A DNA stretch of 64,000 nt from Dehalococcoidia bacterium (GTDB taxonomy: Bacteria; Chloroflexota; Dehalococcoidia; Lucifugimonadales; UBA3495). The notes beneath the pieces are model-generated. The model was not told where the DNA came from. It searched no databases and was given only the letters and a program-made list of their open reading frames with translations. Location: positions 1-64,000 of the forward strand of contig JAJDTP010000004.1 of assembly GCA_022827095.1 (NCBI GenBank). The letters run 5' to 3'. A program made the translations under genes and the position numbers. Below are positions 1,261 to 60,254 of the stretch, piece after piece (position 1 is the first letter of the stretch; each line of letters opens with the position of its first letter).

Positions 1261-1603
1261 CTAAACCGAAGCCGAAGTGAAATCTACATTTGCTGTGCCG
1301 GAACCATTGGCGCGGACGTTGCCGGTCAGTTCTGCGGCACGAGCCTGAAGGACGGCGCGACAACGGCGGCTGACTGATTGCTGGCGGTAGGCCAGATCGG
1401 CGAAGAAACTGCCCACTTTTTCCCGCACTGCGGCACGGGTTCCCAGGCACGCATTGGCGGTTGCCTCCTGCCGAACCCAGCCCCAGATGGCGCGATTGGT
1501 CAAGAATCGGGGCGTTGAAGTCCGGACTGTAACTGGGCAGGTTGACCAGGCGCAGGTTCAGGCCCAGTGTGGCCAGGTACGCTCTGATGGCATCACCCCG
1601 ATG
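1261..1603 (-). pseudogene. IS630-family transposase C-terminal remnant, frameshifted
   Basis: Two frames together spell the end of an IS630-type DDE transposase. From about 1600 leftward one frame reads AHRGDAIRAYLATLG and then LVNLPSYSPDFNA, the conserved C-terminal strand region of the family. From about 1503 another frame continues with AIWGWVRQEATAN to a TAG at 1261. A frameshift near 1505 joins them. Only the last ~110 codons are present and the catalytic N-terminal part is missing. Its upstream edge abuts the selB fragment in the same orientation, so this remnant marks the breakpoint that removed the rest of selB. Confidence 0.75.
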
Positions 1604-2154
1604 GGCCGGCGTGGGCGGCCCAGGTCCCGGCGGGTCTCGGTGTCGTTCAGGATGTCGTCGATCATCGCCTTCAGATCGTCGATGCCTTCGCCCGTATAGG
1701 CGGAGACCGGCGCCATGGGATAACCCTCGAAGGCGGTGCCAACCAGGGTGTCCTCAACCTCCGCCTTGACCAGTTCCACCAACTCCTCGTCGACCAGATC
1801 AACCTTGGTGATGACCACCAGGCCACGCCGGATCCGCAGGATGTCCAGGATAGCCAGATGTTCGCGGGTCTACGGCATCACGCTCTCGTCGGTGGCGACG
1901 ATAAGTATGGCGAGGTCGATGGCGCCGACGCCGGCCTGCATGTTCTTGATGAACCGCTCGTGTCCCGGCACGTCAACGATGCTGACCTCGCGGCCGCTGG
2001 GCAGTGTCATCCAGGCGAAACCTAGGTCGACGGTCATCTCCCGTTCCTTCTCCTCGGGAAGGCGGTCGGGATCGATGTCGGTGAGGGCCTTGACCAGGGT
2101 GGATTTACCGTGGTCGACCTGGCCGGCGGTGCCGATTACGAACATGGTGGACAT
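1604..2154 (-). pseudogene. selB: selB (selenocysteine-specific elongation factor) fragment with amber codon
   Basis: The start (ATG at 2154) gives the SelB/EF-Tu GTPase domain: G1 motif [24 protein letters not shown]3 [12 protein letters not shown], and G4 TKVDLVDE after the break. SelB delivers selenocysteinyl-tRNA to in-frame UGA codons. A TAG at 1870-1872 replaces the Gln expected between MP and [11 protein letters not shown], and the same frame then continues as SelB to RRDLGRPRRPI near 1605, where IS630 sequence takes over. Domains II-III and the winged-helix SECIS-binding domain are gone. The gene is therefore dead twice over. It may be a duplicate of an intact copy elsewhere. Confidence 0.85.
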
Positions 2155-2347
2155 TCCGTAGGGAGGGTCGCTCTGCGCTCACTGGGAGCCTGATCGGCGG
2201 CCATTATACTTGACGCTGCCAGACGCCAATAGTACGCAGGCGCAATAGTCCGCTGCCTGTAGAGACGGGGCAAACGTTGCAGGCTCGGCAGCCGATTGGC
2301 GACGCCCGCCGGCAGGCCGGCGACACAAATCTCGATCCGAGGCTGCC

Positions 2348-26819: not shown

Positions 26820-27305
26820 CGCAAGATCCTCTCCATCGCGAGCTTCTCGCAGGTCCGGCAGTTGGCCGCTAGGGTGCGAGCAGCGCGCTGTCCGGTGTCG
26901 TCAGCGTTGACGGAAATCCCCGCGTGCTCGTACTCAAGTGATGAATTGAGCAGTATCCTCCACCACGTTTTCGTCCTCCCCATGCCGGCCAACCCAGGCA
27001 ACACCAAATCCCGCAATCGCAAAGTCAGCAAGCAAGCCACCAAGAAGGACTTCGGCGCCATCGAGCGCAAGAGTACCATCCGCGCTCCAAAGCCTAAGCT
27101 CACAGACGGCAGAAGCGAGCACTCATGAGGGTCCGCGCCGCCGAAGAACGCCAACGGCTCACAACGACCTCCTGGATTCCCGCGAAAGCGGGAATGACGG
27201 ATTAACTTTGAAAAGGCCCTGCGTGAAGTGGCAGGACCGTTGACAACCCTCCGGCGCTTGACTATGATCCGAACTGACAACGGCCCATTAACATTTGAAT
27301 AGCAC
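26820..27305. other. Gap: possible small basic ORF and a MITE half
   Basis: No firm gene. A plus-strand frame from ATG 26982 to TGA 27128 encodes a 48-residue Lys/Arg-rich peptide (KSRNRKVSKQATKKDFGAIE) with strong G/C preference in third positions, so it could be a real small protein, unassigned. At 27157-27221 lies the right half of a MITE: a 10-bp inverted repeat around CCCGCGAAAGCGGG and the end AAAAGGCCCTG, as in the element at 39624-39768. Confidence 0.35.
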
Positions 27306-27475
27306 CCCCGGCGCACCATTACGGTTTAATAGGGAAGGCGGTGAAAAGCCGCCGCGGTTGCGCCACTGTAAGCGGGGAGCCGACCGGCGAAGACCACTGT
27401 CCACCAACATGGATGGGAAGGTGTCGGTCAGGTGCTGATCCGCAAGCCAGGAGACCTGCCCGGGAAGGTGGAGCA
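27306..27475 (+). promoter_or_regulatory. Cobalamin (B12) riboswitch
   Basis: The core elements are in order: AATAGGGAAGGCGGTGAAAA, GCCGCCGCGGTTGCGCCACT followed by GTAAGCGGGGAGC, the GACCACTG piece, GGGAAGGTGTCGG, and the B12 box AAGCCAGGAGACCTGCC at 27444-27460. It senses adenosyl- or related cobalamins and normally lowers expression when B12 is plentiful. A strong terminator hairpin follows at 27557, so control is probably transcriptional. The downstream genes are an SBP and two ABC permeases. Confidence 0.95.
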
Positions 27476-27556
27476 CTACTCTGCGCCAAACAGAGATAGG
27501 CCCATCGGGTTCCCCGTTGAACAGGACAGGAAACCCCGAGGCTAAAGAGAGATTTC

Positions 27557-56593: not shown

Positions 56594-57433
56594 CTACACG
56601 GTCAGCGGCGTGTCGTCGCGGTTGGCCCACTCGCTCATGGACGCGTCGTAGTTTTTGGCGTTCTCGAAGCCCACCAGGCGCAGTACGAAGTTTCCGTGCG
56701 CCGCACGGATGCCGGCCTGTCAATAGGAGTACGCCGTCTTGTCCGGCGTGATGCCGTGCTCGGTGAGGATGCGCCGGATCTCGGCAGCCGGCTTGAACTC
56801 GTGGGTGTTGCGGTCCATCAGGTGGAACCACTCCAGGTGCACCGCGCCGGGAACGTGGCCCACGCGCTTGTTGCGGTAGTTCTCGGCGGTGCCGTCCCAT
56901 TCGGCGTCGCTGCGCACGTCCCACACCACTACGTTATCCAGCGTGCAGGCTTCCTTGAGCTCGTCGCCGTTGACGATGAAGGAATCGTCGGCCCGTGGCG
57001 TGAAGGTCACCGCCGCCGGAGCCTTGGCGCGTCCGAAGTCCACGGCCTGCCCCGCGTTGACCCAGGCCCGCCATCCGCCGTTGAGCACCTTCACGTTGCG
57101 GTGGCCGTAGTAGTTGAACACCCACCAGATGCGCGCCGCCGTGAGCCCCTGGGCGTGATCGTAGGTGACAACCGTGGTGTCGTCGCCGATGCCCAGGCCC
57201 TCGGCCATGGCCTTGAACTGCTCGGGGGTCATGACGTGCTGCCGGTTCGTATCTGGGTTCTTGGCCCAGTTGTCGGCGACGTGGTGGGCGCCGGGGATGT
57301 GTCCCCGCTGCCAGGCGTCGGCGGTGTTGGCGCAATCCAGCACTACCACGTCGGGATCATCCAGGTGCGCGGCGACCCACGCGGCGTCGGTCAGGTACTC
57401 GGGGTGAGCGTAGTCGTCGGTGTGGGTCGTCAT
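56594..57433 (-). CDS. Two-domain rhodanese (thiosulfate sulfurtransferase) with in-frame TGA at the catalytic Cys: candidate selenoprotein
   Basis: From ATG 57433 the first 237 codons encode both rhodanese domains (EYLTDAAWVAAHLDDPDVVVLD, RGHIPGAHHVADNWAK, then VVWDVRSDAEWDG, GHVPGAVHLEW). At 56720-56722 a TGA stands between TAYSY and QAGIRAAHGNFVLRLVGF. Homologues have Cys there (YCQAGxRAAH), the persulfide-forming residue. The same frame then runs 41 more codons (ENAKNYDASMSEWANRDD, TPLTV) to TAG at 56594. So TGA is read best as selenocysteine (residue 238 of 279). A hairpin of SECIS shape follows at 56693-56709. Alternative: a single nonsense change. Confidence 0.8.
56693..56709 (-). promoter_or_regulatory. 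Candidate bacterial SECIS hairpin downstream of the rhodanese TGA
   Basis: Starting 10 bases after the TGA, TCCGTGC GGC GCACGGA forms a perfect 7-bp stem with a GGC apical loop; the loop begins 17 bases after the TGA. Known bacterial SECIS elements lie immediately after the UGA with a G among the first two loop bases, which this fits. The stem is short, so it could be chance in a GC-rich coding sequence. Confidence 0.5.
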
Positions 57434-57564
57434 GGAGCGGCTCCTGCGGTGGTCTATGAGTTGGCGGGATTGTAGGGTGCGGCGGCGTGACGGGTCAACG
57501 GCAGCGCAGTCCAGTGTTGCAGCGGCTTTGAGGTGCTATCCTATGCGGGAGGGAAGGTGACACC

Positions 57565-57846
57565 ATGGCTACGATCCAGCTCGATATACCCGAAGAAGAC
57601 CGCGAACGCTTCGCCAAACAGGCCCAGCGCGAAGGCAAGACGCTGGATGCCTGGCTGATTTCGGTGGCTCGGCAGCACAGTCCGCGACCAGCGGCTCCAG
57701 CCGACGATAGATTTCGGTCAGTCGAAGAGCTGAGGGCGTTTTTCCGAGAGATATCAGCCAACGCAGGCCCCGGTCCGGAACCCGAATGGGAAGAGCACCT
57801 CAAGAATATCGACGAGTCCCGTCGGCAAGGGTTGCCCGAAGTATGA
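57565..57846 (+). CDS. VapB-like antitoxin
   Basis: 93 residues. IQLDIPEEDRERFAKQAQREGKTLDAWLISVARQ is a ribbon-helix-helix-type DNA-binding start; the acidic C-terminal part (SVEELRAFFREI, EWEEHLKNIDESRRQ) would wrap the toxin. Its TGA overlaps the toxin's ATG (ATGA), and GGAGGGAAGG lies upstream of the start. The pair would autoregulate. Confidence 0.8.
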   Translation: MATIQLDIPEEDRERFAKQAQREGKTLDAWLISVARQHSPRPAAPADDRFRSVEELRAFFREISANAGPGPEPEWEEHLKNIDESRRQGLPEV

Positions 57847-58232
57847 CTTTCGTAGATACAAACGTGTTCATGTATGCCGTAGGAGATCCTCACCCCTTGC
57901 AAGAAGCGGCTTGGAATTTCTTCGACCAATCGTACGTTGACGGCATCCGACTGTGTACTTCTGCGGAGGTGTTGCAAGAATTGGCGCACGCTTACCTACG
58001 CGTGGACCGGGGGGAGGTGTTCAATTCGGCGATGGAAATTCTGTCGCGCTTGGGTGTTGAAGTCTGGCCCCTCGAACGTGAGGATGTGCTGCTCGCCCGT
58101 CAGCTCCACGAGCAACACCCCGGCCTGTCTGCCCGCGACCTCTGTCATCTCGCCTCCTGCCAGCGTCGCGGCGTTAGCGAAATGATGACCTTCGACCAGG
58201 GCCTAGCCTCCACGTTCCGCGACCTGACCTAG
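57843..58232 (+). CDS. VapC-type PIN-domain toxin
   Basis: 129 residues. MTFVDTNVFMYAVG gives the first catalytic Asp5; STSAEVLQELAHAY the Glu; LSARDLCHLASCQRRGVSEMMTFDQGL the later Asp pair. VapC toxins are RNases cutting tRNA or rRNA. Translationally coupled to the antitoxin. All catalytic residues seem intact. Confidence 0.88.
   Translation: MTFVDTNVFMYAVGDPHPLQEAAWNFFDQSYVDGIRLCTSAEVLQELAHAYLRVDRGEVFNSAMEILSRLGVEVWPLEREDVLLARQLHEQHPGLSARDLCHLASCQRRGVSEMMTFDQGLASTFRDLT

Positions 58233-58349: not shown

Positions 58350-60254
<1,905 letters not shown>

Follow-up and report, generated by a model that had tools for sequence, protein, structure and literature searches.

A two-domain rhodanese of a Dehalococcoidia bacterium with a predicted selenocysteine in place of the catalytic cysteine

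A selenocysteine (Sec) rhodanese-related sulfurtransferase (COG2897) with a predicted SECIS was described in 2005 from three sequences of the Sargasso Sea selenoproteome (PMC1088965) and again from eight sequences in the GOS data in 2008 (PMC2398784), and reviews of 2022 and 2026 list the Sec rhodanese as a predicted family (PMC9312934; PMC13188914), the first giving MQG53192.1 as an example and the second using the name 'rhodanese-like form 4' with the motif UxxG. A rhodanese has also been discussed in sulfur cycling by SAR202, a clade of the phylum studied here, in a paper that does not mention selenium (PMC5864207). In the literature searched we found no laboratory work on any Sec rhodanese, the families being listed as predicted. 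Because the family was predicted in 2005 and listed in later reviews, it is not new, a correction to an earlier note on this DNA, which proposed a Sec rhodanese from the letters alone.

The gene described here lies in a stretch of 64,000 nt (the window) from a draft assembly of a Dehalococcoidia bacterium (3.79 Mb, 35 contigs, 97.7% complete, 4% estimated contamination). Reading the minus strand from 57433 to 56594 with TGA taken as a residue gives a single frame of 279 residues with only one TGA, as the earlier note had proposed, and translation with table 11 stops at 237 aa; ordinary gene calling cuts such genes at the TGA and thereby hides the active site. The frame beyond the TGA closes at a normal TAG stop. 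PF00581 (Rhodanese, Pfam) matches the protein in two stretches (E 1.3e-35), and the TGA, in the context YSY-U-QAGIRAAHGNF, aligns with the C-terminal-loop Cys of the solved rhodaneses 1uar, 3hwi and 3aax. In the AlphaFold2 model (pLDDT 93), whose best PDB match is 1uar (TM 0.90), residue 238 is located between a strand (233-237) and a helix (242-253), the classical place of the active-site loop. With two PF00581 domains and the nucleophile position in the C-terminal active-site loop, the protein is a two-domain rhodanese.

Table 1. Features of the rhodanese locus and of the Sec machinery in the same genome. Positions without a prefix are those of the window.
Feature	Position	Strand	Basis or remark
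CDS, two-domain rhodanese with predicted Sec	56594..57433	(-)	single frame, PF00581, AlphaFold2 model
In-frame TGA, predicted Sec, residue 238	56720..56722	(-)	stands where the C-terminal rhodanese domain has its catalytic Cys
C-terminal tail past the TGA, 41 codons and the stop codon, conserved	56594..56719	(-)	conservation in TGA homologs; dN/dS
Bacterial SECIS-type hairpin, 7 bp, 3-nt loop GGC (loop 56702-56700)	56693..56709	(-)	folding, homolog comparison
Shine-Dalgarno AGGAG	57441..57445	(-)	direct sequence reading; 7 nt upstream of ATG
Divergent acyl-CoA synthetase gene	58350..60254	(+)	adjoins the rhodanese; context only
selA	C5:779213-780556		541 bits, over curated cut-off
selB, full-length, uninterrupted	C26:57473-59329		355 bits, over curated cut-off
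selD, one in-frame TGA	C20:25694-26614 = L017:1501-2421	(-)	376 bits, over curated cut-off
tRNA-Sec, TCA anticodon (UCA in RNA)	C11:238523-238615		66 bits, over curated cut-off

A search of 393 Dehalococcoidia genomes for homologs (E <= 1e-40) gave matches in 186. Across 90 class genes, counting that of the window, the aligned codon reads TGA 54 times and TGC or TGT 36 times, and no other codon occurs there; the UGA thus stands at a redox Cys that homologs carry at the same codon (a tally of 93 adds the three remoter Cys rhodaneses encoded elsewhere in the window's own genome). Beyond the class, a TGA form with an identical hairpin is found in a single family belonging to a different class of this phylum, and five of 80 named loci, all of them Chloroflexi/Dehalococcoidia MAGs, have TGA while the rest have Cys at the site, in a set that under-samples TGA genes because one of its two search patterns demanded Cys. 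The nearest named relative is L118 (60% identity). The tail that follows the TGA is conserved in the TGA homologs, and over the 40 codons past the TGA close TGA pairs have dN/dS values from 0 to 0.26, mostly below 0.1; this part of the protein is under purifying selection. A site-masked tree, built by a quick method that does not tell the direction of change, needs eight Sec/Cys changes, at least six of them on well-supported branches; the two forms thus interchange at least six to eight times on the tree. Even a single genus contains both, L086 having TGA with the hairpin and L088 having TGC with a decayed hairpin. Several Cys-form genomes retain selB, so that the switch to Cys needs no loss of the machinery.

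Ten nucleotides past the TGA, as the earlier note reported, begins the hairpin UCCGUGC-GGC-GCACGGA (56709-56693), whose loop has its first G 18 nt downstream of the UGA; like a SECIS, it lies inside the coding region directly after the UGA and has a small apical loop with a G. Folding energy, compared for 40-42 nt with dinucleotide or synonymous shuffles, discriminates poorly because this DNA is GC-rich: the 40-nt stretch has an unremarkable value (z -1.1), and that of the 23-nt core reaches z -3.0, with 0 of 200 shuffles as low. We therefore used the position-fixed stem and the contrast between Sec and Cys genes instead. The exact 7-bp stem appears in 0.15% of synonymous re-codings in which the protein sequence and codon usage are held. 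The comparison among homologs is decisive: when positions are numbered from the UGA, 46 of the 54 TGA genes but none of the 36 Cys genes form the inner six pairs (Fisher p about 1e-17, counting genes as independent and ignoring kinship). The stem spans an Arg codon that has to be CGT for pairing; CGT is used there by 47/54 TGA genes versus 6/36 Cys genes, whereas at all other Arg positions of those TGA genes it accounts for only 7.6%. The second pair from the bottom, 56708-56694, is mostly C-G, but it is A-U in two sequences and G-C in ten, the latter being spread over a large clade, two further lineages and the divergent L116, which has the G-C bases but does not form the hairpin; these exchanges come at the cost of altered residues (Ile to Val, Gly to Ala or Val). 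In L118, the pair equivalent to 56704-56698 changes from G-C to U-A, and this compensatory exchange (L118:5694-5721) turns an Ala into Ser and an otherwise strongly conserved His into Asn, so that the SECIS pair is kept at the price of a protein change. Compensatory changes in a conserved hairpin are seen only where the codon is TGA. The Sec rhodaneses of a subgroup of family f17 (L084, L090, L091, L094, L099, L117) have a 7-bp stem that lies 3 nt away from the usual place and carries a 4-nt loop, a variant that is less certain because similar folds exist in some Cys genes. One Cys form, L050, retains stem remnants (CCGUG...CACGG) and the Gly codon, perhaps left over from a SECIS that has been lost. 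Viral contigs scanned with a SECIS pattern gave no hit.

These comparisons bear on the simplest alternative, that a nonsense mutation or a sequencing error made a pseudogene or put in a wrong base, leaving a dead protein of 237 aa. In its favour, a single TGA truncates the ORF, and the genome is a draft with some estimated contamination. However, the same codon is TGA in the 54 class genes, in further named MAGs and in another class, the tail is under purifying selection and the hairpin is retained only with TGA. Since homologs already refute it, we reject this explanation as highly improbable.

All four components expected for a bacterial selenoprotein, selA, selB, selC and selD, are present in the same genome (Table 1). 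The TGA of selD stands in the context LSHCAG-U-AAKL and is followed by an 8-bp hairpin with the loop GGU, suggesting that SelD of this genome is itself a Sec protein; with GGU in selD and GGC in the rhodanese gene, the two share an arrangement with a 3-nt loop starting with GG. The genome also has RF2, and TGA is therefore an ordinary stop elsewhere in it. Among the matches listed, selB is found in 68 of 75 TGA-rhodanese genomes (the TGA genomes numbering at least 75) versus 188 of 318 others, and the seven TGA-rhodanese genomes without selB are drafts at most 87% complete. If TGA were read as Trp, Cys or Gly through a reassigned code or a suppressor tRNA, an in-frame TGA with a conserved tail would likewise result. 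Nevertheless, the presence of RF2, of tRNA-Sec with its UCA anticodon and of selA, selB and selD in the genome, the Sec-type hairpin after the TGA and the co-occurrence of TGA genes with selB across genomes lead us to reject a reading other than Sec as very unlikely. The window itself also contains, at 1600-2160 (-), a 5' fragment of selB of about 187 codons with an in-frame TAG, which shares 92% DNA identity with the genome's intact copy. It is a pseudogene fragment and leaves the Sec trait unaffected, a full-length selB being present on contig 26.

We conclude, with a probability of about 0.93, that the gene encodes a two-domain rhodanese-type sulfurtransferase in which Sec replaces the catalytic Cys, a genuine selenoprotein, including the decoding and chemistry proposed here. 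Its grounds are a TGA where homologs have Cys, a hairpin that is conserved and shows compensating changes, the complete set of selA, selB, selC and selD, the selection on the tail and the exchange of Sec and Cys; every computational check suggested in the earlier note turned out in its favour. From these grounds we infer selenium incorporation, the chemistry of Sec238 and a presumed enzyme activity. The UGA would be decoded by tRNA-Sec(UCA) delivered by SelB, which would recognise the stem-loop that follows immediately within the coding sequence, and failure of decoding would release a 237-aa product that lacks the active-site loop and the last strand and helices. As in other rhodaneses, the C-terminal loop would supply the nucleophile that takes up sulfane sulfur and hands it on. 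Sec very probably does the job of Cys here and carries the sulfane sulfur as Se-S: the selenolate of Sec238 would accept it from a donor (thiosulfate, persulfide or similar), and the Se-S intermediate would pass it to a thiol or another nucleophile. This intermediate would be a selenosulfide, R-Se-S(-); the name 'perselenide sulfurtransferase' in the earlier note is loose as a chemical term. The likely benefits of Sec are a higher nucleophilicity at low pH and an easy recovery from oxidation.

The divergent acyl-CoA synthetase arrangement recurs in L118 (82% identity), and we searched 26 loci for a conserved operon partner and found none. As named by a look at the sequence, some relatives have a gene for a TlpA-like redoxin downstream, and three have one for an MBL-fold hydrolase nearby. 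A small antitoxin-like gene and an overlapping PIN/VapC-like gene, also named in this way, occupy 57565-58232 (+) of the window, between the rhodanese and the acyl-CoA synthetase, and no homolog of either was found in the L118 flanks. Elsewhere in the window, a cobalamin riboswitch is located at 27292-27477 (+) (111 bits).

The Sec238 residue could instead make the rhodanese scaffold a peroxidase-like or persulfide-reducing redox centre, or a handler of selenium (e.g. one that passes Se to SelD), rather than a sulfur carrier. This would fit with most characterised selenoproteins being oxidoreductases (PMC9312934) and with the redoxin or hydrolase gene near a few relatives, and ordinary sulfur transfer could be left to the three Cys rhodaneses that the genome also encodes. 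Yet the neighbouring genes are not conserved, and Cys orthologs replace the Sec form repeatedly, so that the reaction presumably works with Cys too. Furthermore, the loop U-Q-A/G-G-I/V-R keeps the rhodanese spacing and has no second Sec and, unlike most thioredoxin-like selenoproteins, no second Cys. We consider such a role unlikely and prefer Sec238 as a sulfur carrier. More speculatively, Sec238 might enable a reaction that Cys forms do poorly, such as a reversible, oxidation-proof sulfane transfer or the reduction of persulfides or peroxides in oxic habitats; we regard this as doubtful. The many natural Sec/Cys switches of Dehalococcoidia would then mark the habitats where the reaction matters. 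The gene offers a well-supported case from a near-complete genome with an RNA element whose covariation is testable, and the matched Sec and Cys orthologs, even within one genus, could tell what selenium adds to a sulfur-transfer enzyme.

Among solved proteins, the rhodanese of Thermus thermophilus (1uar) and mycobacterial CysA2/CysA3 (3hwi, 3aax) share the tandem rhodanese fold and the active-site position with the present protein, but they have Cys in the loops CRIAERSS or CRIGERSS where it has a predicted Sec in UQAGIRAA. The 3-mercaptopyruvate sulfurtransferase SseA (1urh) has the same fold and catalytic position, but its loop, CGSGVTA, is absent here, and the corresponding model (NCBIfam PRK11493) scores 120.7 bits against a cut-off of 250. 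The rhodanese of selenite/tellurite operons, ExtH (NF040901), is likewise rejected at 91.1 bits (cut-off 200). Other rhodanese-domain proteins with Sec, namely forms 1, 2, 3 and TsoB, are listed separately with the motifs UxxS, UxxG, CxU and UxxxxU (PMC13188914), and form 3 (NF041203) reaches only 40.9 bits (cut-off 115). The Sargasso/GOS family (COG2897/cd01449) agrees with the present protein in being a two-domain-rhodanese family with a single Sec, the motif UxxG (here U-Q-A-G on two PF00581 domains), a SECIS right after the UGA and widespread Cys homologs; we judged the COG2897-type likeness from the two PF00581 domains and from the nearest solved proteins being thiosulfate sulfurtransferases, and the likeness to the published examples MQG53192.1, MCY3690685.1 and AACY01016424 from motif and description. 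The material differs in that the family was described from three and eight environmental sequences, whereas the present gene comes from a near-complete genome that has every sel gene, and it recurs in dozens of relatives in the class. On this comparative evidence, the present gene appears to be a strongly supported addition to the already predicted Sec rhodanese family, and what seems to be new is its spread through Dehalococcoidia, the covariation of its SECIS and the natural switches between Sec and Cys.
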